This document shows positions 5,898 through 16,547 of a DNA stretch of 21,972 nt, piece by piece. The stretch's first letter is position 1. Every line of letters begins with the position of its first letter. Source of the DNA: a virus; the IMG/VR virus record IMGVR_UViG_3300032308_002274, positions 1 through 21,972 of that record. The stretch is one strand, 5' to 3'. Below the pieces are notes generated by a model. It was not told the origin of the DNA. It ran no database searches and worked only from the letters and a program-made list of their open reading frames with translations. The translations under genes and the position numbers were made by a program.

Positions 5898-6562
5898 TCG
5901 AAGGCCTTCCATGCTTGACCATAGTGATGGTCACAAATCGTGTTGACTGCATCTGCGTAATGTCGAATATGGCTTTGCGCAGTGCTGTGTGTGCGCAGAC
6001 TGACGAAATGCTTTAATGCCTGCTGTGATGCTGTCCAGTAGAAACGTGTGTACACTGCCAATGGCAAAGCCATGCGTGCTTCCTCGCGAGACATGCCATG
6101 CGCAATCAGGTAATGATAGTGGAGCATAGATGTCTCGATGGATTCGCGCAATTGCTTTGCATGCAATTCGTCCATTGCGTCTGCTGATCCCTGCTTGCTC
6201 ACTGAGCTTTGAAAATGGACGACGTCAGGATTGTATGCATGCAGTATTTCGCTGTATCTCTGAGAAACCTCATTCCATCCAGTATCGACAAATGCATACG
6301 AAGAGCCAACAACATGCTTATACCATTGGCGTGCCACAAACTCTGGACACGACACCATCAGTGTGACTGGCGAATGACGGAATGGAGACCAATGACCGTC
6401 TTTGGCCAGACGCGCAATCAGACGCGCATCCTTCTCAGGATCATGCGCACCATCTTTGTCGTAACTCACTCTGGCTGCATCAGTGATTTTCTCTGATGGA
6501 TTGACGGTCATCCAGTCTACCAATTCGACAAAACCATGCTGGCCATCAACGTCGATTCTCAT
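5894..6562 (-). CDS. thyX: Flavin-dependent thymidylate synthase ThyX
   Basis: 222 residues. ThyX makes dTMP from dUMP using FAD, NADPH and methylene-tetrahydrofolate. Family features seen: HWSPFRHSPVTLMV (57-70), VARQWYKH (76-83), WNEVSQRYSE (96-105), and the C-terminal helix EARMALPLAVYTRFYWTAS (161-179) with LRTHSTAQSHIRHYA. The usual RHR at the start of the signature is KHV here, and extra residues (SSYAFVDTG) separate it from NEVSQRYS. I recall this variation in other phage ThyX proteins, so activity is still likely. Its start overlaps the upstream stop (ATGA). Confidence 0.92.
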   Translation of the reverse strand: MRIDVDGQHGFVELVDWMTVNPSEKITDAARVSYDKDGAHDPEKDARLIARLAKDGHWSPFRHSPVTLMVSCPEFVARQWYKHVVGSSYAFVDTGWNEVSQRYSEILHAYNPDVVHFQSSVSKQGSADAMDELHAKQLRESIETSMLHYHYLIAHGMSREEARMALPLAVYTRFYWTASQQALKHFVSLRTHSTAQSHIRHYADAVNTICDHHYGQAWKAFE

Positions 6563-6867
6563 GCGCGTTTCTCTGCTTCCTCTTTGTATACCTGCTTCTG
6601 CAATTGCTCAATCCTCACAGTGATTTGACTGCGCCAGATGTGCAAATCCTCTCGCTCAGGATGCTTGGCAATCTCTGCGTCAATCTCCATGCGCTTCCAT
6701 CGCCAGAATTCCAAGACCTGCATTGTGCTATTACTCATGTCAAACTTTCCTTCCTGCGATTGGTCATATGTTGGCTCATTGCGTTTTTCCTTCAGCAACA
6801 TCATCAGAAATGCGTGCGCATGTTTACCTTGGAGTTTGATTCGAATGTATTCATCATCACTACTCAT
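6559..6867 (-). CDS. Unknown protein, larger member of a paralogous pair
   Basis: 102 residues, no recognised family. Residues 44-102 (from MSNSTMQVLEFWRWK through EIAKHPEREDLHIWRSQI) resemble the entire next-upstream gene product, so the two share a helical, charged domain. The first 43 residues have no counterpart there. An internal ATG at 6738 begins the shared part and has its own AAGGA site about 9 bases upstream, so a 59-residue shorter product is possible. Starts and stops overlap neighbours by ATGA on both sides. The charged helices suggest a coiled coil; no function is assigned. Confidence 0.7.
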   Translation of the reverse strand: MSSDDEYIRIKLQGKHAHAFLMMLLKEKRNEPTYDQSQEGKFDMSNSTMQVLEFWRWKRMEIDAEIAKHPEREDLHIWRSQITVRIEQLQKQVYKEEAEKRA

Positions 6868-7180: not shown

Positions 7181-7542
7181 TGCCACACTGCCTTTCCATC
7201 AATGACGACCATCCATTGTGACCAACATTTTTGCGAAGATTTCCAATGCTTCCATCCATGGCCATCATTCCAGAGTCTTCGGAATGCACTGTACTGATTT
7301 TCATAGGAATCTCGCTGCGCATGGTCTGTGCCCATGAGTTTGAGATATGTTGCGTCGTTGAATTGAAACAGTCCACCATCATTGGTCTCTGACCTGGCTT
7401 GCGTCGTGTATGTACCATAGTTGTATCCATCGCCAGACTCGCATGAGATGATGGCCAGTGCTTCGCGAGACACAGCAAATGGCACTACTCGACAGTCACC
7501 AGCAGAACACAGCAGATACCAGAAAAGCACTATGGTTTCCAT
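7177..7542 (-). CDS. Secreted lysozyme/transglycosylase-like (SLT/Rpf-type) protein
   Basis: 121 residues. The N-terminus METIVLFWYLLCSA is hydrophobic, consistent with a short signal or anchor. The domain then shows IISCESGDGYN (31-41) with candidate catalytic Glu35, NDGGLFQFNDATY (54-66), ENQYSAFRRLWNDG (81-94), and GWKHWKSSQKCW (96-107): the order found in resuscitation-promoting-factor and soluble-transglycosylase-like muralytic domains. C34 and C106 could form a disulfide. GGAG lies eight bases before the ATG at 7542. It sits far from the canonical lysis genes, between two micro-membrane genes, so it may act in wall remodelling or accessory lysis. Enzyme class is by motif only. Confidence 0.75.
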   Translation of the reverse strand: METIVLFWYLLCSAGDCRVVPFAVSREALAIISCESGDGYNYGTYTTQARSETNDGGLFQFNDATYLKLMGTDHAQRDSYENQYSAFRRLWNDGHGWKHWKSSQKCWSQWMVVIDGKAVWQ

Positions 7543-7628
7543 CTTCGTTGCTCCAATGCCATGCCGACGACAATCGCCACAGTCGCAGTCACAAAACCAA
7601 GCACACATCCTGCGATAAACTCAATCAC
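7530..7628 (-). CDS. 32-residue single-span membrane micro-protein
   Basis: A GTG start at 7628 has GAGG six bases upstream and overlaps the preceding stop by eight bases. The product is a membrane span (FIAGCVLGFVTATVAIVVGM) followed by a polar, basic tail (ALEQRRWKP). Its 3' end runs 13 bases into the transglycosylase-like gene and carries that gene's ribosome site, so translation is likely coupled. Very small proteins of this shape are common in phage genomes and usually uncharacterised. A holin-like or spanin-like role is possible but unproven. Confidence 0.65.
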   Translation of the reverse strand: MIEFIAGCVLGFVTATVAIVVGMALEQRRWKP

Positions 7629-7833
7629 TCTGCACCTCTTCTGCCAATGCCAGTAATTCTTCAACAATGTCTTCTTTGATCAGTGCCAGTGTGGCATCAA
7701 TCCTGCTTCCTCGTGTCACTACTTCGTCTTCCTGGTCGTCTGCTTTCTCTCGCACCATCATCCATCGACCGCTTAGAGCGACGTCGATTCGGTACCAGTA
7801 TCTGCCAATCAATTTCCGATAAATCATACGCAT
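7621..7833 (-). CDS. Unknown 70-residue protein overlapping the nuclease gene
   Basis: Not recognised. Residues 1-26 are basic and aromatic (RKLIGRYWYRIDVALSGRW), the middle is acidic (KADDQEDEVV), and the C-terminus is a helical acidic stretch (ALIKEDIVEELLALAEE). GGAG is placed 10 bases before the ATG at 7833. The first 137 bases lie inside the nuclease gene in another frame. The sequence looks protein-like, whereas the nuclease tail in the same DNA is low-complexity basic, so this frame may be the older one. A shorter start at 7761 lacks a clear ribosome site. Confidence 0.6.
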   Translation of the reverse strand: MRMIYRKLIGRYWYRIDVALSGRWMMVREKADDQEDEVVTRGSRIDATLALIKEDIVEELLALAEEVQSD

Positions 7834-8125
7834 TGCGCAGAATCTCCATAATGTCCATGGCTTCGTCTACTGTGCGTATGACGACTGCTGGATATTCAGA
7901 CCATTGTGCAAAGAATTCTTTTTGCTTTGCGCTTAGAGATCCCTTTGGAGATTTTACTTCTACACAGAAAAGCGTGCCACGATAGCCACAGAGTAAATCA
8001 GGTACGCCACCACCAGCATTGCTCAGGTCTGCGACCAGTGCGCCAGAGTATGTCAATGCTGCCACAATGGCCTTGTGATTTTGGTCAAGCTGCTGGCGAA
8101 ACCTTGGTATATATCCCTTGCTCAT
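7697..8125 (-). CDS. VRR-NUC-type nuclease (PD-(D/E)XK fold)
   Basis: 142 residues. The core matches VRR-NUC/Holliday-junction-resolvase-like phage nucleases: NAGGGVPDLL (36-45, metal-binding D43), FCVEVKSPKGSLSAKQKEFF (53-72, with E56, K58 and Q68). Such stand-alone domains are common near phage replication genes and cut branched or structured DNA. From about residue 98 on, and especially from residue 113, the protein ends in a basic Arg/Ser/Asp tail (PNRRRSKRSMDD) encoded in the region shared with the next gene. The start overlaps the upstream stop (ATGA). Substrate cannot be told from sequence. Confidence 0.85.
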   Translation of the reverse strand: MSKGYIPRFRQQLDQNHKAIVAALTYSGALVADLSNAGGGVPDLLCGYRGTLFCVEVKSPKGSLSAKQKEFFAQWSEYPAVVIRTVDEAMDIMEILRNAYDLSEIDWQILVPNRRRSKRSMDDGARESRRPGRRSSDTRKQD

Positions 8126-8601
8126 TTCTGCACACCTTCGCCAGTGAATGCCAACATGATCTGAATCAAATCGCGATCACTGCTGCGTGTTTTCCATTGG
8201 CGCCATTTGGATGCAAGCATTGCAAATTCTCCACCTTGGAGAATGCTGGCATCGAGTCGCACATTGAAGCGGTCAATGGCATCTTTGCGCTTCATTGCTG
8301 TACCTGGCCCATACGCAGATGATGCGCTTTCCATCATGGACACAAATCGCTGTTGCGTGTCGATCTGCGATGTGCGCAGTGCTGAGCGCCATGTGGTTTC
8401 TAACTCATCTACCTCATGCGCCACAATGGTCAGTGAGCCAGACGCATCCTTCCTGCACAGTGTGCAAAGCTGTGGATAAGGTGTGGCAGTATCCATGGCA
8501 CGCATGCAACACAAGCACAGTGCAGGCCCATTCTTTTTTATAGTTGGACTGTTGTCGGTTTTGGTATCCATAAACAGATCGCCTTTCTCTCGCTTAGCCA
8601 T
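8122..8601 (-). CDS. Cys-rich (zinc-ribbon-like) unknown protein
   Basis: 159 residues. A CLCC motif (29-32) and CTLC (46-49), 14 residues apart, suggest a small zinc-binding unit; the rest is helical and charged with no recognised fold. AAGGA lies seven bases before the ATG at 8601. Upstream frame extension to 8664 runs into the leader and lacks support. This is the first gene after a 123-base leader behind the primase and couples to the nuclease gene (ATGA). It may bind DNA or RNA, or partner the nuclease, as inference. Confidence 0.75.
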   Translation of the reverse strand: MAKREKGDLFMDTKTDNSPTIKKNGPALCLCCMRAMDTATPYPQLCTLCRKDASGSLTIVAHEVDELETTWRSALRTSQIDTQQRFVSMMESASSAYGPGTAMKRKDAIDRFNVRLDASILQGGEFAMLASKWRQWKTRSSDRDLIQIMLAFTGEGVQK

Positions 8602-8640
8602 TTTCTCTTCCTTCAGTGTGCAATAAGACATTAAGTAGGT

Positions 8641-8658
8641 ATACTTTTTGTAAAGTAT
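8641..8658. promoter_or_regulatory. Perfect inverted repeat in the leader of the Cys-rich gene
   Basis: ATACTTT and AAAGTAT form a 7-bp inverted repeat with a 4-base spacer, about 40 bases before the start at 8601 and just downstream of a possible -10 element. It could be an operator or an AU-rich RNA hairpin. The symmetry is visible directly; function is inference. Confidence 0.4.
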
Positions 8659-8668
8659 GTACATGAAG

Positions 8669-8674
8669 AGAATA
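8669..8674 (-). promoter_or_regulatory. Possible -10 element of a weak promoter
   Basis: In the 8602-8724 gap the minus strand reads CTACTATATTCTC. It shares CTATATTCT with promoter P2, where TATTCT is the -10. The expected -35 position holds only a T-rich run and no TTGACA-like box, so any promoter would be weak or activator-dependent. No gene is seen in the rest of this gap. Confidence 0.3.
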
Positions 8675-8724
8675 TAGTAGAAACTCTTGGAAAAAATAGT
8701 GAGATGATGTCTTAATGCACACGA

Positions 8725-11070
8725 TTATGCTTCACCTCGACGCATTTGACTGCGCGACGGTCGTGCTTCTTCTGGTGCAGTGCGAAACTCATCCAGCATA
8801 CCAATGCCAAACATTGAAGAGCGATTGTGTGAGACTGCACCAATCTCTGCATATCGTGTCAGTAATTGCTGCACAAGCCATCGTTGCGATTTGAATGCTG
8901 CACCTCTTTCGCCTTCGTCTTCTGCCCATTCCTTCCATGCATCGTAGAGCGTGTGCTTACTGACGACAGCAGTCAGATTCATGACGCATCTCTGCTGGAT
9001 GAATCGCGCAACGATGTCTTCTTCTCCACGGTATTCTGTCGTTGCTTTCTCGACAGCTTCGCATGAGCCAAGGCCATTCTGATACCAGAGATGTGCGCCA
9101 AAAATCATCCATTGCAGGATCGCTTCAGATTCCTCATGGAACATGGCTTCCAATTCTCTTGGATCTTTTCTCTGAGCTTCTGGAATGGTCGCAGTGAATG
9201 GCAGGATGCGCAGTCTGCGCCAGATGCCCACATCGAGACCTGTGATGCGAGGTTTATGATTGCCAGTAATCCAGAGTGTGTGCGACGGATTGAAGACGAA
9301 TGGTTTTCCATAGAGTGTGCGCGCAGTGATCGCATCGCCACCAGTGATGTCTTTCACTCTGGATTCATTGAGCTTTCTTCCTTCTGGCATCTCTGAGGCC
9401 ATGGCGAATCGTTTCCCTACCAATGCAGCAATCATTGGTGTGGCACCTTCTCCATCTTGTCTGTGGTCAAGCAGTGCTTCGATGGATGATGTGGTGCCAT
9501 AGTCACCAGCAATGATGCTGAGCGCTTTCATAAAACTGGATTTCCCATTTGCACCATTGCCATAGCAGAAGAAAAGACAGTGTTCGTCTGTAGAGCCAGT
9601 CATGGTATATCCGACGGCCTTCTGCACATAGTCAATCAGATCGGTGTCGTCTTGGAAGACTGTGCGCAGGAATGTCTGCCATTTTTGCGACATGGGAATT
9701 TCTCGATAGTTGACATTGACTATCTTTGTCAGCATCAGTGTGGCATCGTGCTTGATGACAGTCATGGTGCGCAAATCGACGACGCAATTGGCGCAATTAA
9801 AAAGCCATGGAGAGGAATCGAATTCAGATGGCTTTGCGACAAGATATGGCTGAGCTTCTGCAATCATGCCATCGATGCGCGATGTGGATTCACTCTTCAG
9901 TGCCCATTTCGCCAGATCAGCATTGATGGCGAGATTGCCACCAGCTTCTTTGTACATGTCAAGCACGACTGCGTGTGCCAGTCGCTTCACTGCATGGACA
10001 TCAGTATGCTCCCATCGTTGCCCATTCCAGACAATCCATGCTTTCCATTCTGGCACGTATCGCAATTTGTCTTTTGTTGCATCCACCAGTCTTTTTCCAT
10101 TGCCAACATCCGTGTGATGGTATGGAGCATCGATTATTGCAACATCGTCTGTCTGAGAGTCTGTCAGTGCTGCCTGTGACGACGTTTTGACTGGCACTGA
10201 TTTCTCTGATGGCCTTGGTATTGGCAATGGCGCTTTTCGACCATAGCCAATACCATCAATGATTGCTTTGCGCTCTTGTCGCTGCGCACCAGTGCGAGGA
10301 ATCTGCGCACCATACAGCATGTCGGTAATCTGGTCATCAGAGAAGAGAGAAAAGCCAACAGACTCTGCACCAGCAAGATAGCCACCAATCAGACGACCTG
10401 CGCGAATGCGTGTTTCATGGCGATCACCTTCAACAGCATTCGCTACCATGCGTATGCATGCGTCGATGCGTCTCTGCATCACCTCTTTGACCCATGCATG
10501 TGGATAGTCTGCATTGCTTGGTGCCACATTTGGCAAAGGTTTGGATGCTTTGTCTGCATCAGTCAATTCATCAATGAGCCAATTCACTGCATCTTGGATG
10601 TCGGTCAATTCCTCAGAGGATCCATCAGTGAGATTCTCAGTGAATGTGAAATACCTGGCAGTTTCGTATATCTCGACCTTATCGCCACCAGCAGTGCGAC
10701 CTTTGAGCCTGGCACCTTCAGGTATCTTGGCAGTGCCAATGATGTGCAGGCCTTTTCCGCTTGGAGATATTTCGCTGTACGATTTGGCGAAATACAGTGC
10801 TTGCTTTGCGACGTTTGATGGCTTGACTGATGCATCAGGCATTATTGTGAAGCATGCATCTAGGTCGATGCCCACAATGCCATCACCAGTCAGCACAAAG
10901 CCAACACCAACAGTGTTGTATTTTCCTACTGCTTTTTCTGCTTCGTCATGTGTTGTCCATGTCGAGGAATCTGTGGATGATGCATTGCGTCCAGATTTGG
11001 CATCCACAGGAATTTTCTTCGCTGTGTAGCACACCCATCTTGGCTGTGATTTCAGATCGTCAATGTTCAT
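8725..11070 (-). CDS. Primase-polymerase / SF3 helicase fusion (replication protein)
   Basis: 781 residues, the main replication protein. N-terminal archaeo-eukaryotic-type PrimPol domain: GIVGIDLDAC (64-73, D69 and D71), SPSGKGLHI (102-110, H109) and VEIYETARYFTFT (132-144). C-terminal part: D5_N-like region, then an SF3 helicase with Walker A GNGANGKS (504-511), Walker B MASE (557-560), TGNHKP motif C (602-607) and WRRLRILPF with arginine-finger candidates at 618-619. Such proteins prime and unwind at phage or plasmid origins (P4 alpha/D5-like family). The start overlaps the coiled-coil gene stop (ATGA). The domain order is complete, without frameshift. Confidence 0.94.
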   Translation of the reverse strand: MNIDDLKSQPRWVCYTAKKIPVDAKSGRNASSTDSSTWTTHDEAEKAVGKYNTVGVGFVLTGDGIVGIDLDACFTIMPDASVKPSNVAKQALYFAKSYSEISPSGKGLHIIGTAKIPEGARLKGRTAGGDKVEIYETARYFTFTENLTDGSSEELTDIQDAVNWLIDELTDADKASKPLPNVAPSNADYPHAWVKEVMQRRIDACIRMVANAVEGDRHETRIRAGRLIGGYLAGAESVGFSLFSDDQITDMLYGAQIPRTGAQRQERKAIIDGIGYGRKAPLPIPRPSEKSVPVKTSSQAALTDSQTDDVAIIDAPYHHTDVGNGKRLVDATKDKLRYVPEWKAWIVWNGQRWEHTDVHAVKRLAHAVVLDMYKEAGGNLAINADLAKWALKSESTSRIDGMIAEAQPYLVAKPSEFDSSPWLFNCANCVVDLRTMTVIKHDATLMLTKIVNVNYREIPMSQKWQTFLRTVFQDDTDLIDYVQKAVGYTMTGSTDEHCLFFCYGNGANGKSSFMKALSIIAGDYGTTSSIEALLDHRQDGEGATPMIAALVGKRFAMASEMPEGRKLNESRVKDITGGDAITARTLYGKPFVFNPSHTLWITGNHKPRITGLDVGIWRRLRILPFTATIPEAQRKDPRELEAMFHEESEAILQWMIFGAHLWYQNGLGSCEAVEKATTEYRGEEDIVARFIQQRCVMNLTAVVSKHTLYDAWKEWAEDEGERGAAFKSQRWLVQQLLTRYAEIGAVSHNRSSMFGIGMLDEFRTAPEEARPSRSQMRRGEA

Positions 11071-11309
11071 GCGCTCTTCTCGTCTGGATGATTGTAGGTA
11101 TTAACCAAATGCTGTAACACGCTCAGAGACTCTCGCGCAATGCCAAAGGCCTGATCTGCTTGCCATTGCAAGACGGATTCTGGACGTTTCATCAGAAGCT
11201 GGATTGCACCTTGCAAATCAGAAATGCATCCATCAAGCTGCTTTGCTTGCTTCCTGATTTCCATGCGTCGTATGCGTAGAGTTTCCGTGTGTGCTTTGAT
11301 ATCGTACAT
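11067..11309 (-). CDS. Small coiled-coil protein upstream of the primase
   Basis: 80 residues, mostly helical and charged (TETLRIRRMEIRKQAKQLDG, then QADQAFGIARESLSVLQHL). No family recognised. The start at 11309 has GGGGA six bases upstream and overlaps the preceding stop as TAATG; the ATG four codons earlier is unlikely because that ribosome site would fall inside the coding sequence. It is coupled to the primase by ATGA, so it may be a replication accessory or oligomerisation factor, as inference. Confidence 0.7.
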   Translation of the reverse strand: MYDIKAHTETLRIRRMEIRKQAKQLDGCISDLQGAIQLLMKRPESVLQWQADQAFGIARESLSVLQHLVNTYNHPDEKSA

Positions 11310-11620
11310 TATTTTCCCCATTTCCCTTGTCGCAGTATCAGTGCAATGATTGCGTATCCTGCTAGATCGCGCAGTGTGTCGTCGATGGATTCTTCTTGGT
11401 TCAGCAGATGTGGCTGTGATGACAATGTAATCAGTCGCTCTATCTTGTCGCTCATGCGCACAACGATGCCATGCAGACCAAATCTGCCAATCGCATGTGC
11501 GCCATACGAAGATGCTTTGATGACATGCTGTCTGGCTAAATCGTCACAGTTTGTCATGAATGCTTCAAATTGTTCTGGATAGGTTTGCAGTAATGCATCG
11601 AAATTGTCTGGACGTTTCAT
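11309..11620 (-). CDS. DUF1599 / nucleotide modification-associated domain 1 (Nmad1)-like protein
   Basis: 103 residues. VVRMSDKIERLITLSS (53-68) and ESIDDTLRDLAGYA (77-90) reproduce the two signature helices of the DUF1599/Nmad1 family, an all-helical group resembling MazG/dUTPase-type NTP pyrophosphohydrolases and often found in phages with modified DNA. The acidic residues in DKIER and DDTLRDL would fit metal binding. GAGGT is six bases before the ATG. It lies one gene from a C5-cytosine methyltransferase. A dNTP-related role is inferred from family association; substrate is unknown. Confidence 0.75.
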   Translation of the reverse strand: MKRPDNFDALLQTYPEQFEAFMTNCDDLARQHVIKASSYGAHAIGRFGLHGIVVRMSDKIERLITLSSQPHLLNQEESIDDTLRDLAGYAIIALILRQGKWGK

Positions 11621-11790
11621 TCCTTCACCTCAGATACGACTGCGCGCAGCACATCGCCAATGAGTTTATTTCTCGATGTCTTCTTGGATTCTGCCAGCAC
11701 ATGCAGTGCTTGTGCGATGCTCAATGGCAGTCGCACGCTGATGTATACCGATGTGATGCCAGATGGTTTCCGTCCAGGTTTGGTCGTCAT
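11617..11790 (-). CDS. Ribbon-helix-helix DNA-binding protein
   Basis: 57 residues, found by reading the minus strand between the methyltransferase stop and the next start, with ATGA overlaps at both ends. A basic arm (TTKPGRKPSG) precedes a strand VYISVRLP (about 15-22), then helices SIAQALHVLAES (24-35) and SRNKLIGDVLRAVVSEV (39-55). That is the MetJ/Arc ribbon-helix-helix layout: a dimer inserts the strand into the DNA major groove. It is a likely transcriptional regulator, possibly of its own operon; targets could be the inverted repeats in nearby leaders, which is untested. Confidence 0.75.
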   Translation of the reverse strand: MTTKPGRKPSGITSVYISVRLPLSIAQALHVLAESKKTSRNKLIGDVLRAVVSEVKE

Positions 11791-12908
11791 TTGAGAATCT
11801 CCATTATACGTTTACCGATCCATTGCACCACAGGCACAGGCCATGAGTTTCCAAGAGCTTTGTATCTTGGCGCATCTGATGCCATCTTTCCTTTGAATGG
11901 TATCAGTGTATAGTCGTCTGGAAATCCTTGCAGTCTCTCGCATTCTCTTGGTGTGAGCCGTCGTATATCGACCATGGGCACATTGCCACCACCAGTGCTT
12001 ATGTGCGATGTTAGTGCTGGCGCAATGTCGTCAGTCTGGACACGCATGGGATCAAAGCCAATCTTCTGCCAGATTGTTCCAATACTAGGATGATGTTTCA
12101 GTGTTATTGCTGGAGACAATTCCTCTTCATATCCTGGCGCATTTCCAAGCTTTCCAGTATGCACACCATTGCCAGATATGCTGTACGTCATTCCTGCTGA
12201 GCTTTGGCCATCAGTGCTTCTCTGAGAGGTTTCGGAATCTGCTTTCCGTATTTCTCTGATCGGTCTATGATGCTTTTGCACTGAGCCGAATTCAAATAGT
12301 ATTTGTCCAATATCAATGTCGTCTCTAGCACTGCTGACAAGAAACACACGCTTCCTTCGTTGGGCCAATCCGAAGTATTGAGCGTCGAGAATTCGCCATG
12401 CAATGCTTCTGACTGGTCCAATGACAAGACCCGCGTTTGCCCATTTGTTCCTTGGCGAGACCAATGCTTCTGATTCGCCTGCAAGGCCTGCGAGAAAATG
12501 ACCGAATGCATTATCATGCGTGCTGAGGACACCTGGCACGTTTTCCCATAAGATGATTGATGGCTTTTCTCCTCTTGCTCTTCGAACATCGTCAATTGCA
12601 TTTGCTACCTCACAGAATATGAGACTAAGATTTCCGCGATCGTCGTCGAGACTCTGGCGATTGCCTGCCATGCTGAATGCTTGGCATGGCGTGCCACCAC
12701 ACAGCATCTCTGGTGCAGTCACAAAGCCTGAGCGAATCAAATCAGGAAGCACTGCCATATCGCCAATGTTTGGCGTGTCTGGATAGTGATGCGCCAGCAC
12801 TGCTGATGGAAATTCGTCAATCTCAGCAAGCCATGCAGCATGCATGCCAAGAGGATTGAGCGCAACAGATGCAGATTCGATACCACTGCAGACAGATCCG
12901 AATTGCAT
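11787..12908 (-). CDS. DNA (cytosine-5) methyltransferase
   Basis: 373 residues with the full C5-MTase motif set: motif I FGSVCSGIES (3-12), motif IV GGTPCQAFS (71-79, catalytic Cys75), motif VI WENVPG (121-126), motif VIII QRRKRVFLV (183-191), motif IX RRLTPRECERLQGFPDDYT and motif X YKALGNSWPVPV. It methylates cytosine in DNA, probably protecting phage DNA from restriction or marking it. No partner restriction gene is seen, so this is an orphan enzyme. The region between motifs VIII and IX (target recognition) is ordinary in size. GGAG sits six bases before the ATG at 12908. A perfect hairpin lies just upstream of that ribosome site. Confidence 0.95.
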   Translation of the reverse strand: MQFGSVCSGIESASVALNPLGMHAAWLAEIDEFPSAVLAHHYPDTPNIGDMAVLPDLIRSGFVTAPEMLCGGTPCQAFSMAGNRQSLDDDRGNLSLIFCEVANAIDDVRRARGEKPSIILWENVPGVLSTHDNAFGHFLAGLAGESEALVSPRNKWANAGLVIGPVRSIAWRILDAQYFGLAQRRKRVFLVSSARDDIDIGQILFEFGSVQKHHRPIREIRKADSETSQRSTDGQSSAGMTYSISGNGVHTGKLGNAPGYEEELSPAITLKHHPSIGTIWQKIGFDPMRVQTDDIAPALTSHISTGGGNVPMVDIRRLTPRECERLQGFPDDYTLIPFKGKMASDAPRYKALGNSWPVPVVQWIGKRIMEILK

Positions 12909-12921
12909 GGATATCTCCAAT

Positions 12922-12953
12922 GAGATGCGCAGTGTGTAAGCACTGCGCATCTC
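12922..12953. promoter_or_regulatory. Perfect 13-bp stem-loop in the methyltransferase leader
   Basis: GAGATGCGCAGTG and its exact complement flank a 6-base loop between the SSB-like stop (12962) and the methyltransferase start (12908). No T-run follows on either strand, so it does not look like a factor-independent terminator. On the transcript it ends three bases before the GGAG site, so it could control initiation or mark an RNA processing point. Confidence 0.75.
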
Positions 12954-12961
12954 GATACGAA

Positions 12962-13768
12962 TTAGAATGGTCGAGAATCCTCATCATACTCTGTTGGTGT
13001 GTTGCGTGCTGGCTCTTGCACTGCTGGCTCAGCTGGCACCTCGTCATTGGTGCGCATTTCCTTTGACCAGTCGCGATATTCCTCAAAAGCAGTCTGTGCT
13101 TTCTCCATCATGGTCTTTCCGACATAGAGTGATGCGCACAGATCGCGGTCAATCTTGGCAATATCGAAGCCAATCTTTGGAATGATGACAGATGAGCCAT
13201 AGCCAGTATCAGTCGTAATCAGACGATTCTTCCTGTCCAATGGCTGTGTGATCGGTGTCCAAAACATGAAGCTTGGAATGTCTCGCTTTGCAGTCTTTTT
13301 TGCTTCTGTCGCAACATCTCGCATGGCAGCAAAGATTGATTCACTCTTCATTGCTGTGACACCTCGACCTACCAATCCCTTGACTGGCCAGACGACCACA
13401 TCATCATAGCCTTCAACGAAGCACAAGATTTCAGTGTACAGACGCATGTTGGCATTGGCTTTCCAGTGTGTATGCCAGGTCTTGGTGCGAATGCCAGCAG
13501 TCGTCTCTTCTGTGTATGCCTGTGTGCGCGTGCGAATGACGACAATGCGCAGTGATGATGCAGTGAAACCATCTTCGTCGTCGAAAAGCTCAGCATTCTC
13601 CCATGGTGCCAGCAGATCAGGCAATTGCGATGCGCGTGCGTAGAATTTGCCCACAATGCCTGTGGTCTTCGTCGTTGATAACCAAGAGATGCGAGGAATA
13701 CCATCGCCAATGTCTTCGCGCTCATGGCTGTAATTGATGTCTTGCAAATCGCGTTCAAAATCACTCAT
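12962..13768 (-). CDS. Putative single-stranded DNA-binding protein with SSB-like acidic tail
   Basis: 268 residues, not firmly recognised. The core is strand-rich with aromatic and basic residues (IVGKFYARASQLPD, TKTWHTHWKANANMRLY, VVWPVKGLVGRGVTA, PSFMFWTPITQPL). The C-terminus is a long acidic, Pro-rich tail ending YDEDSRPF, which strongly resembles the acidic-Phe tip used by bacterial and T7 SSBs to recruit partners. The KGLVGRG...FWTPI pattern recalls phage DUF5895-like proteins. Its place in the replication block fits SSB function. GGGAG lies before the ATG at 13768; the in-frame ATG at 13819 would read through the leader hairpin and is rejected. Confidence 0.6.
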   Translation of the reverse strand: MSDFERDLQDINYSHEREDIGDGIPRISWLSTTKTTGIVGKFYARASQLPDLLAPWENAELFDDEDGFTASSLRIVVIRTRTQAYTEETTAGIRTKTWHTHWKANANMRLYTEILCFVEGYDDVVVWPVKGLVGRGVTAMKSESIFAAMRDVATEAKKTAKRDIPSFMFWTPITQPLDRKNRLITTDTGYGSSVIIPKIGFDIAKIDRDLCASLYVGKTMMEKAQTAFEEYRDWSKEMRTNDEVPAEPAVQEPARNTPTEYDEDSRPF

Positions 13769-13790
13769 GGAGTTTCTCCCTTGTGTGTAT

Positions 13791-13813
13791 GAGCCAGTCA
13801 GAGTGACTGGCTC
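13791..13813. promoter_or_regulatory. Perfect 10-bp stem-loop in the SSB-like gene leader
   Basis: GAGCCAGTCA pairs exactly with TGACTGGCTC across a GAG loop, between the stop at 13829 and the start at 13768. On the transcript it is followed after about eight bases by the AAGGGAG ribosome site. There is no T-run. The inner GCCAG/CTGGC resembles the stems of the two hairpins near 16000 and 16280. Confidence 0.75.
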
Positions 13814-13828
13814 TATCAAATACTTTGC

Positions 13829-14059
13829 CTAGGTGTTAGGATTGACTGCTTCCCATGTCGGAATGGCATCCAAGGGATCAATCTGGTATGTGCCACACTC
13901 GACATCGATGCGTCGTCGCAATTCTTCGCTGTAGATGTCATAGGCGATCACATCGCCAATCACATATGCAACATGCGAAGCAAACTCCACATACGATGCA
14001 CTACGCTCAGAGACGGTCGAGCGCATTTCCTTGGCCTGTTCCTCAGTGATGTGTCTCAT
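13829..14059 (-). CDS. Unknown small protein, first gene after promoter P2
   Basis: 76 residues beginning MRHITEEQAKEMRSTVSERS; the N-terminal half is helical and charged, the C-terminal half mixed (RRRIDVECGTYQIDPLDAIP). No family is recognised. The ribosome site AAAGGA lies eight bases before the ATG at 14059, in a leader sharing the string CAGAAAGGAAACGACC with the gene starting at 15976. It is separated by 60 bases with a hairpin from the SSB-like gene. As the promoter-proximal gene of the replication block it is probably made early. Confidence 0.7.
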   Translation of the reverse strand: MRHITEEQAKEMRSTVSERSASYVEFASHVAYVIGDVIAYDIYSEELRRRIDVECGTYQIDPLDAIPTWEAVNPNT

Positions 14060-14090
14060 TGGTCGTTTCCTTTCTGACGATACCAATTAT

Positions 14091-14113
14091 GTACTGCGCA
14101 TTGCGCTTCGTAC
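14091..14113. promoter_or_regulatory. Interrupted stem-loop at the predicted P2 transcript start
   Basis: GTAC and GCGC arms pair with GCGC and GTAC around a 3-base loop, with a small asymmetric internal loop. It starts at about the expected first transcribed base of P2, so the mRNA would begin with this structure, which often protects RNA 5' ends. The symmetry is seen; the role is inferred. Confidence 0.4.
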
Positions 14114-14119
14114 CAAACT

Positions 14120-14148
14120 AGAATATAGCATATCAATTCATCTGTCAA
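14120..14148 (-). promoter_or_regulatory. Promoter P2 (sigma-70-like)
   Basis: On the minus strand TTGACA (14143-14148, perfect -35) is spaced 17 bases from TATTCT (14120-14125), and TG-C-TATATT offers an overlapping extended -10. It shares the core TTGATATGCTATAT with P1. The -35 overlaps the stop codon of the tandem-HTH gene. It would drive the replication/modification block starting at 14059. Confidence 0.65.
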
Positions 14149-14972
14149 ACATCATCTTCAGGAAGACAATCAATATTCATTCGCCAGATGCGCATTCTTA
14201 CAGTGTTGTATGCAATACCTAATTCTGCAGAGATTTGCTTTCGTGTGCGAGTAGCAAACCATGCAGGATCAGCAGGCCATCCCATTTCTTTGCGATATGG
14301 AATGTGTGTGTATCCATGTCTTCTGCAGTGATCTCTCACAGAATCCAGTGATGTGCCCAAATCAATTGCTATCTGAGCTGTGGTCTTGGCTGCGTAGTAC
14401 GATGCATCTGTTGGCCATTTGACGTGTGTATAGCTTCGCTTCCATTTCAATCCATGCTTCCTGCAATATGTTTTGACTGTGTTTGTGACGACATGCAGTG
14501 CTTCAGCAATCTCTTGTGTTGTTTTGTCTGCATACCAGGCAGCATCGCTAGGCCATCGATTGTGATATGTTGTTGGTCGAATTGCGCGCTTGGTTTTAAA
14601 TCCATACTGGCGCACAAAGCTTCTCACTGTGGAGTCTGTAAGATTGAATTCATTGCAAATCTGCTTGACCGTGTGAGTTTCGTAGTAATCATGATTCAAT
14701 GGAAGCACGTTTGATTTGCAATTGCGACGGTCTCGCAATTGTGCATAGCCAAAAAAATCACTCTCAGTGATTGCAATCACAGTGCCATTGTGCGACATGC
14801 CAAATGTTTCTTGCATGTGATACAGCACATCTTCTTCAGGAATGTTGATTGCTTTGGCGATATACCATGTCGGATTGTCGCTGTGCAGTGTGGCAATCAC
14901 ATCGTCTGTGTATCGCAGATCATCTCGACAAATCTTCATTTCTGGATATCGCATATCATCACCATATTTCAT
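14145..14972 (-). CDS. Tandem helix-turn-helix repeat protein
   Basis: 275 residues built largely from repeats of about 46 residues. Repeats at about 140-176, 186-222 and 232-268 each open W-P-x-D-x-x-W/Y-Y/F-A, continue KTxxQIAxxL, and end T/S-V-(R/K)-x-x-C-R-x-H-G or a variant. A more divergent copy is at about 91-125 (DYYETHTVKQICNEF...STVRSFVRQYG) and a possible degenerate fifth at about 33-58. Each matches a trihelical HTH with a Trp/Tyr-capped first helix, so the chain could read an extended DNA site. Single HTH units of this type are common in sigma-like and phage regulators; four or more in series are not. Start: ATG 14972 (TGATG overlap) or GTG 14975 (GTGA overlap). The role as regulator is inferred. 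Confidence 0.8.
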   Translation of the reverse strand: MKYGDDMRYPEMKICRDDLRYTDDVIATLHSDNPTWYIAKAINIPEEDVLYHMQETFGMSHNGTVIAITESDFFGYAQLRDRRNCKSNVLPLNHDYYETHTVKQICNEFNLTDSTVRSFVRQYGFKTKRAIRPTTYHNRWPSDAAWYADKTTQEIAEALHVVTNTVKTYCRKHGLKWKRSYTHVKWPTDASYYAAKTTAQIAIDLGTSLDSVRDHCRRHGYTHIPYRKEMGWPADPAWFATRTRKQISAELGIAYNTVRMRIWRMNIDCLPEDDV

Positions 14973-15211
14973 CACAAATGAATTCCTCTCGCAATCAGTA
15001 CTGCGTCGATCATAGAGCGCACATCATTCAGAGTCTTTCCCTCATAGGATTTGACGACTCTTCCCTTGCGTCCACCAGTCTCTTCCAATGTACCAATCCA
15101 GATGCCATCTAAGCCAAGAGCAATCCTGCCATAGTATTGGCGATTTGGCGTGTCGTATTTGACACGCCATGTCATGCCAGTGTGGCGCCATACAATCTTT
15201 GGTGCAGTCAT
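14972..15211 (-). CDS. Unknown small basic protein
   Basis: 79 residues, not recognised. The first two thirds is strand-like (KIVWRHTGMTWRVKYD, RQYYGRIALGLDGIWIGTLEE), then a Gly/Lys/Arg loop and a helix (TLNDVRSMIDAVLIARG). The composition suggests a small nucleic-acid-binding fold, but no motif proves it. It is coupled on both sides (ATGA upstream, GTGA/TGATG downstream). A 9-bp perfect inverted repeat (15146-15169) lies inside the coding sequence. Confidence 0.7.
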   Translation of the reverse strand: MTAPKIVWRHTGMTWRVKYDTPNRQYYGRIALGLDGIWIGTLEETGGRKGRVVKSYEGKTLNDVRSMIDAVLIARGIHL

Positions 15212-15695: not shown

Positions 15696-15976
15696 TAGTT
15701 TGTCTTTCTGTATCGACGTGCTTCGCGTGTCGTTGCGTGCCAGTATCCTCCAATGGGATTGAGTATTCTTCCTTCGTCATTGCGCATGACAGCATAGGTG
15801 CGAGTGCCATACTCGATGTCAGCATAGTCAAGCATGCCAATGATGCGCTTTGCAAATTCGCGGTCAATTGCGACATAGTACTGATGTGTGTACAAAATTT
15901 TGTCATTGTCTGCGCGACAAATGGAGATTGTGATTCTCTCTGTGATCGGCCTGCGCAAATCAGTCAGCACACTCAT
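15695..15976 (-). CDS. Unknown early protein with duplicated leader
   Basis: 93 residues, not recognised. Strand/helix mix (ERITISICRADNDK, YYVAIDREFAKRIIGMLDYA) ending in a basic tail (HATTREARRYRKTN). The ribosome site AGAAAGGA precedes the ATG at 15976 within a 50-base leader that is a near copy of the leader at 16253-16302. The stop overlaps the next start as TAATG. Confidence 0.7.
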   Translation of the reverse strand: MSVLTDLRRPITERITISICRADNDKILYTHQYYVAIDREFAKRIIGMLDYADIEYGTRTYAVMRNDEGRILNPIGGYWHATTREARRYRKTN

Positions 15977-16023
15977 GGTCGTTTCCTTTCTGTGTGGTGC
16001 CAGCTCAGCACTGGCACCATTGC
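15974..16023 (-). repeat. Leader repeat, copy 1 (hairpin plus ribosome site)
   Basis: A 50-base block that on the transcript reads hairpin, CACACAGAAAGGAAACGACC, ATG. It matches 16253-16302 in 43 of 50 positions; 42 of the 43 positions outside the loop are identical. It contains the stem-loop 15995-16019 (9-bp stem with TGGTGCCAG, 7-base loop). Confidence 0.85.
15995..16019. promoter_or_regulatory. Perfect 9-bp stem-loop next to a ribosome binding site
   Basis: TGGTGCCAG pairs with CTGGCACCA across the loop CTCAGCA. There is no T-run. On the transcript the stem ends about four bases before AGAAAGGA, placing it where it could hold back or guide ribosomes or be bound by a protein. The stem is identical to that at 16274-16298. 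Confidence 0.75.
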
Positions 16024-16033
16024 TCTATTCGCT

Positions 16034-16255
16034 CTACAGTGTGTCGTCACCGACAATGTAGCAAACGACGACGTTTTCTTCTGGATGCTTTTCTTTCCAG
16101 TGATTGACGATTGACTGAAAATCAGCATACGTCGTGTTCAGACCATTGAATGCAATCTTGATTTCTCTGGTCTCTGCATCCTTGATGATGACGCGATTGT
16201 ATATGGCTTCAGTGATTGGATTCTTCGTCTTGGAGAATGGATGGTTTTCCTTCAT
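16034..16255 (-). CDS. Unknown early protein
   Basis: 73 residues starting MKENHPFSKTKNPITEAIYN; then a strand-turn-strand (RVIIKDAETREIKIAFNG) and a helix (YADFQSIVNHWKEKHPEE) followed by a hydrophobic strand VVVCYIVGDD. It resembles a small alpha/beta domain; no family recognised. AAAGGA lies 7 bases before the ATG at 16255. A longer frame to 16348 would cross the leader hairpin and overlap the upstream gene, so it is rejected. Confidence 0.7.
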   Translation of the reverse strand: MKENHPFSKTKNPITEAIYNRVIIKDAETREIKIAFNGLNTTYADFQSIVNHWKEKHPEENVVVCYIVGDDTL

Positions 16256-16302
16256 GGTCATTTCCTTTCTGTGTGGTGCCAGTGCTAAGCTGGCACCATT
16301 GC
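16253..16302 (-). repeat. Leader repeat, copy 2 (hairpin plus ribosome site)
   Basis: Second copy of the 50-base leader. Flanks are in the same orientation as copy 1, but the hairpin loop TGCTAAG matches the reverse complement of the copy 1 loop in 6 of 7 positions and its direct sequence in only 1 of 7. This is what inversion of the loop between the two arms would give. Confidence 0.85.
16274..16298. promoter_or_regulatory. Perfect 9-bp stem-loop next to a ribosome binding site
   Basis: TGGTGCCAG and CTGGCACCA flank the loop TGCTAAG, in the 58 bases between the stop at 16314 and the start at 16255. The stem is identical to the copy at 15995-16019. It lacks a T-run, so termination is unlikely. 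Confidence 0.75.
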
Positions 16303-16518: not shown

Positions 16519-16547
16519 ATTATATAGCATATCAATGATACATGCAA
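16519..16547 (-). promoter_or_regulatory. Promoter P1 (sigma-70-like) for the early operon
   Basis: On the minus strand TATAAT (16519-16524, perfect -10) follows TTGCAT (16542-16547) with a 17-base spacer. It shares the core TTGATATGCTATAT with P2. It lies about 40 bases before the first early start at 16478 and 170 bases after the terminator of the tail operon, so it would restart leftward transcription. Confidence 0.7.

Follow-up and report, generated by a model that had tools for sequence, protein, structure and literature searches.

Background and closest described systems

Proteins with several helix-turn-helix (HTH) units in one chain are not new, having been described in archaea and in phages. 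The CRISPR repeat-binding protein Cbp1 of the Sulfolobales (NCBIfam NF040595) carries three HTHs that line up on the CRISPR repeat from 5′ to 3′ (PMC10883916). The D5 protein of phage T5 (PHROG 323) is annotated as DNA-binding and as required for both replication and late transcription; several HTH-like units can be recognized in it by eye and its gene sits between those of a ligase (ligB) and the replicative helicase D6. Two or more HTHs per chain, with long composite DNA sites, are found in TnsD/TniQ, in the Tc3/Mos1 transposases and in Pax/POU proteins. The HTHs of the LuxR C-terminus (GerE) and of sigma70 region 4 are found singly, each chain having one that follows a receiver or polymerase-binding domain.

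The protein described here is encoded by an uncultured freshwater virus of bacteria. The stretch of DNA analyzed (the window) comprises the whole of an IMG/VR record, 21,972 bases long, which was treated as a fragment, and all genes that could be assigned in it lie on the minus strand. Within the multi-HTH proteins, the five-unit phage family to which this protein belongs is new.

The gene and its genomic context

The gene of the five-HTH protein (14145-14975, minus strand) was identified as an open reading frame with its translation, and has six orthologs at 78-88% identity. It starts at an ATG (14972) or a GTG (14975), its stop codon ends at 14145 and its product has 275-276 residues, which are numbered here from the ATG at 14972. 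The original prediction, which placed the gene at 14145-14972 and quoted its recognition helices, was correct on both. Downstream lies a co-directional block (8725-14059, minus strand), coding for an 85-aa ORF, a protein of approximately 267 residues of no known family, a C5-methyltransferase, a DUF1599-like protein, an 84-aa ORF and a D5_N primase/helicase. The HTH gene thus lies ahead of methyltransferase and primase/helicase genes, a replication-gene setting like that of T5 D5.

The protein of approximately 267 residues (12962-13768, minus strand) gave no match in Pfam and PHROG searches, and is 71-98% identical among relatives. The C5-cytosine methyltransferase gene (11787-12950) is replaced in contig L003 by a gene of the Mom DNA-modification family (8098-8766; PF25680, E-value 4e-37).

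Five helix-turn-helix units cover the chain

Nearly all residues of the protein belong to five HTH units; outside them there is only a linker of approximately 30 residues (60-90) and the short chain ends. Three copies of a 46-residue repeat begin at W140, W186 and W232, and are preceded by a diverged copy. These are unit 2 (14598-14702, residues ~91-125, recognition segment TDSTVRSFVRQYG), unit 3 (14448-14555, residues ~140-175, VTNTVKTYCRKHG), unit 4 (14310-14417, residues ~186-221, SLDSVRDHCRRHG) and unit 5 (14169-14279, residues ~232-268, AYNTVRMRIWRMN), all on the minus strand. Each was recovered by a shuffle test, a repeat HMM, AlphaFold2 and hhalign, with unit 3 also showing a GerE/Sigma70_r4-like match in Pfam. 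Pairwise alignment of units 2-5 with each other gave z values of 7.9-20.0 in the shuffle test, the repeat HMM scored 64-68 bits on each, and their ortholog profiles matched pairwise with 99.6-99.8% probability in hhalign. The three regular repeats and the diverged copy that had been proposed from the sequence are thereby borne out.

A fifth copy had been put forward as a possibility and is real. Unit 1 (14796-14924, minus strand, residues ~17-59) is divergent and acidic and is the most conserved unit among relatives. Pairwise alignment did not detect it against the other units (z -0.5 to 2.4 in the shuffle test), but its hhalign profile matches that of unit 4 with 78.6% probability and the HTH of a neighboring multi-HTH protein with 95.8%. 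It is counted as an HTH because of these profile matches and three predicted helices (residues 23-29, 35-42 and 46-55 in the AlphaFold2 model). Its predicted pI is 4.5 vs 8.1-10.0 for units 2-5. The linker to unit 2 (14703-14795, minus strand) is of variable length and is of low pLDDT at residues 74-87.

AlphaFold2, given 24 sequences, produced a model of five trihelical units with a mean pLDDT of 77 and a pTM of 0.31, which therefore predicts the units and not their mutual arrangement; it supersedes a poor run on seven near-identical sequences (pLDDT 54). The model's helices span residues 94-99, 102-109 and 113-122 in unit 2, 144-149, 152-159 and 163-172 in unit 3, 190-195, 198-205 and 209-219 in unit 4, and 236-240, 244-251 and 255-264 in unit 5. 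Repeated trihelical domains are what the original prediction had anticipated, as is the spread of tandem HTHs over most of the chain. Strong Pfam matches, both of this protein and of 19 family members, are to DNA-binding HTH families only, and the Pfam scan found no other domain in the protein. With at least three HTH domains per chain over most of the chain, it has a tandem multi-HTH architecture.

Comparison with known multi-HTH proteins

Cbp1 shares with the window protein tandem HTHs arisen by domain duplication and joined by short linkers, and the head-to-tail alignment of its units along a long asymmetric site may be a further likeness, by analogy. It differs in having three units, an archaeal host and the CRISPR repeat as target, against five units and a phage in the present case. 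On the NF040595 profile, whose family cut-off is 140 bits, the window protein reaches 21.5 bits, the structural match to 2lvs, a CRISPR repeat-binding protein, is weak and not significant, and the 20 repeat families listed for the window (of at least 60) include no tandem repeat array. With T5 D5, which is annotated as DNA-binding, the common features are a phage origin, several HTH-like units and a gene located among replication genes. However, D5 itself scores 242.8 bits against PHROG 323, vs 55.4 bits for the five-HTH protein in three separate stretches, all of them HTH, and with D5 hhalign aligns 33 residues, a single HTH unit, at 34% probability.

Each unit resembles the trihelical DNA-binding domains of GerE and sigma70 region 4, but the chain is made up of HTH units only, unlike a sigma70 factor or LuxR regulator, where one C-terminal HTH follows sigma region 2 or a receiver domain. 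Matches to TnsD/TniQ, Tc3/Mos1 transposase and Pax/POU are weak, and unlike these the protein has no transposase or partner domain; its Pfam TnsD score is 15.4 bits, below the gathering score of 32.4. Neither the Pfam scan nor the families listed for 19 relatives included a nuclease family such as those of homing or HNH endonucleases. Structure matches in BFVD include a D5 protein, endonucleases and uncharacterized phage proteins, a variety which points to multi-HTH proteins as a recurring type in phages. The earlier description of a multi-HTH regulator as unusual has to be qualified, given Cbp1, T5 D5/PHROG 323 and the several such proteins carried by relatives of this phage.

Distribution and relatives

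Approximately 20 relatives of the protein were found, all on IMG/VR contigs (L numbers) and mostly with five units. Orthologs were obtained by direct search (three) and by alignment search (six), and a DNA pattern of two W-P-x-D...Y-F/Y motifs approximately 46 residues apart returned 29 stretches. An iterated HMM of the repeat, run over open frames, returned about twenty distinct proteins of five units, all spaced alike, and further profile searches added more relatives. No relative of the window protein was found in 50,697 cultured-phage records at an E-value of 0.01, and none that was convincing for divergent members of the family; two scans of 84,980 bacterial and archaeal species genomes likewise found none. 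The PDB gave no match by sequence and nothing by fold at an E-value of 0.001, in a whole-chain search that is weakened by unit order. The libraries searched returned no hit to a model made for the five-unit family itself. Together these proteins make up a phage family not described before, with a varying number of repeats and, in some genomes, several multi-HTH paralogs. Four-unit paralogs of about 225 residues occur in L020, L021 (633-1307) and L077-L083, sometimes several in one genome.

Another kind of multi-HTH protein, of about 195-205 aa, has its gene close to the five-HTH gene, often directly upstream, in several of the phages (L018 5411-5992, L021 8795-9376 and L026 6372-6983, all minus strand; L032 3690-4283; L023 12012-12617). 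The two kinds are related by hhalign profiles (97.2%, E-value 3e-11), and the window holds a 79-aa ORF where relatives encode this protein. In L069, three consecutive multi-HTH open frames (7403-9809) are flanked by two promoters whose spacers are almost the same (TTGACACGCTATACAGTAT). In L006 (6031-6780) unit 1 lacks its turn and recognition helix through a 15-residue deletion, and in L002 (6146-6739) the frame is broken ahead of unit 2; units 2-5 are intact in both, and these losses of unit 1 may be real or assembly faults.

Divergence between lineages

Mean identity among lineages is 70% for unit 1, 41-49% for units 2-5 and 34% for the linker. In units 2-5 the kept positions are those of the scaffold (P0, Y6, T10, I14 and L18), and the least kept are offsets 21, 22, 23 and 27 in the turn and recognition helix (0.10-0.23), only a modest drop from the remaining variable positions (about 0.21-0.26). 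The original prediction had contrasted a conserved scaffold with differing recognition helices, and this pattern also holds between lineages, as would be expected if the units differ in specificity.

The HTH gene is subject to rapid change or to exchange. Identities of 62, 43, 40-41, 46 and 34% for the HTH protein stand against 98, 80, 73, 71 and 79% for the ~267-residue neighbor on the same contigs, the extremes being L025/L042 (62% vs 98% for this downstream neighbor) and L019/L040 (34% vs 79%). Immunity-type regulators often diverge fast in the same manner.

Two bracketing promoter-like sites share a spacer block in three of eight lineages

Two promoter-like sites of the sigma70 type, both on the minus strand, bracket the operon of the HTH gene. 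Site (a), TTGCAT-17-TATAAT (16519-16547), is ahead of an operon of small genes that includes the HTH gene, and site (b), TTGACA-17-TATTCT (14120-14148), overlaps the HTH stop codon ahead of the replication operon. The window contains the sequence ATTGATATGCTATAT in perfect form exactly twice, once inside each of these sites (16522-16536 and 14123-14137), and with up to three mismatches there are six matches vs 1.0 expected. Six aligned phages of the window group all have the spacer part ATTGATATGCTA unchanged at both promoters, amid flanking bases that differ. L025 retains the block of the window group despite its HTH protein being only 62% identical.

Other lineages share different blocks. 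Sites (a) and (b) have AATAGCATGATATA in common in L063 and in L064/L023, and share TATACAGTAT (also given as CGCTATACAGTAT) in L069; further lineages keep the -35 and -10 elements but not the block. An extended -10 basal promoter as the cause of the shared spacer is unlikely in view of these latter lineages. With the sites picked by eye from synteny and the lineages grouped by the analyst, pairs from the same genome had a mean of 9.3 of 16 vs 6.4 when permuted at the lineage level, a value as high being reached in 24 of 40,320 permutations. When the whole contig is searched for site (b), site (a) comes out as the top match in the window group, L063 and L069; this is not so in L062, L060, L032, L056, L059 and L070, and L061 gives a tie. 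Spacer sharing is thus strong in three of the eight lineages, each with a different block, and the two promoters of the other five share no spacer beyond background. As a class, sigma70-type sites are no commoner in the region than in shuffles.

The pattern of shared spacers supports one regulator common to both promoters, and the position of its gene suggests the HTH protein as that regulator. We regard the shared block tentatively as its operator, a candidate by correlation only and somewhat short of an even chance. Alternatively, the shared spacer could stem from a duplicated promoter or serve a different regulator.

Proposed function

It is very probable, judging from sequence and model, that the protein binds DNA, which we infer from its fold, its charge and the candidate site. 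That it controls transcription is probable to a lesser degree, in agreement with the earlier suggestion of a likely DNA-binding regulator encoded just ahead of the replication operon, where a promoter-like site overlaps its stop codon. The full proposal, a sequence-specific regulator of transcription that binds double-stranded DNA and acts at both bracketing promoters, we put at even odds on the predicted features. Under it, the basic units 2-5 would probably be arrayed along the DNA, giving a long, non-palindromic, composite site. The acidic and conserved unit 1 may read DNA unlike the other units and would probably have a shared task, for example orienting the protein, self-association or polymerase contact. 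At both promoters the protein would bind over the -10 region and the spacer, controlling its own operon from site (a) and the replication operon from site (b); the simplest sign would be that of a repressor which also sets its own level.

The location of the gene directly ahead of the replication operon would also suit a DNA binder associated with replication, either one that recognizes an origin or iterons or a D5-like factor for replication and a transcription switch, in place of a dedicated promoter regulator. The best PHROG of the protein is 323, 'transcriptional regulator, D5-like' (1.4e-14), and the D5 match in BFVD and the annotated roles and gene position of T5 D5 point the same way. 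We consider this unlikely, as kinship to D5 extends over a single HTH unit, the conserved motif is located in promoters, and the 20 direct-repeat families mentioned above (of at least 60 in the window) include no iteron-like array. The same absence of a repeat array, and the presence of the shared block in just two copies, argue against a chromatin-like protein that coats regions of the phage DNA and switches no promoter, in the manner of Cbp1 or a nucleoid protein. Cbp1, with its three tandem HTHs along the CRISPR repeat, acts so together with Cren7 (PMC10883916), and its profile does match weakly across two units (E-value 1.8e-4), but at a score far below the cut-off such a role seems highly improbable.

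PHROG families of HNH endonucleases match the HTH parts of the protein (8446, 1.5e-10), Pfam gives a weak TnsD match (E-value 0.01), an artificial consensus matches TniQ on plasmids, and endonucleases are among the BFVD matches. These would fit a nuclease or transposition module (a homing endonuclease or a TnsD/TniQ-like target selector) of which the protein is the DNA-binding remnant or an accessory, with the HTH array finding a long target. However, nearly every residue belongs to HTH units, neither the chain nor the list of families for 19 relatives includes a nuclease or transposase catalytic domain, and the operon position is conserved and not that of a scattered insertion, which makes this very unlikely. 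As for a protein that blocks a host process or defense system through sites in host DNA, the fast divergence among related phages would fit an arms race too, but the idea has no positive evidence and the shared promoter blocks point to phage DNA; it has very little probability in our estimate.

If the operator of the proposed two-promoter regulator is right, the lineages provide several naturally matched multi-HTH proteins and sites, with controlled differences from pair to pair. It could then be asked whether HTHs, usually dimeric and palindromic in bacteria, form a linear modular code, and the timing of early and replication genes in an uncultured freshwater phage group would be shown. In its boldest form, which we think distinctly unlikely, the protein would be a modular DNA reader and the phage counterpart of poly-zinc-finger proteins, each unit reading its own bases, recognition helices and operators co-evolving by lineage, and four- and five-unit paralogs in one genome taking different sites; a recognition code for tandem HTHs could in that case be derived from natural protein-operator pairs. 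Even with the operator wrong, the results document an undescribed multi-HTH phage family with varying repeat number.

Inverted repeats and other sequence features

Intergenic inverted repeats of the form TGGTGCCAG...CTGGCACCA were considered as the main operator candidate and rejected, as they sit just before the ribosome-binding sites of small genes. The arms co-vary between copies, TGGCGCCAG occurring with CTGGCGCCA and TGATGCCAG with CTGGCATCA, and since they change together an RNA hairpin fits better than an operator. A cassette of hairpin and ribosome-binding site (TGGTGCCAG N7 CTGGCACCA CACAGAAAGGAAACGACC ATG) precedes several consecutive small genes, at 15973-16023 and 16252-16302 (minus strand) in the window and at 6287-6311, 6622-6646 and 6885-6909 in L054. 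The start-associated sequences of cluster K mycobacteriophages are similarly placed but differ in sequence (PMC3203893). A direct repeat of approximately 10 bp (ATATACG) was noticed, by eye only, at promoters of the L007/L031 group. Past promoter (b), the leader (14049-14112, minus strand) contains an inverted repeat, GTACGAAGCGCAATGCGCAGTAC, which is conserved in the window group and is possibly an RNA hairpin.
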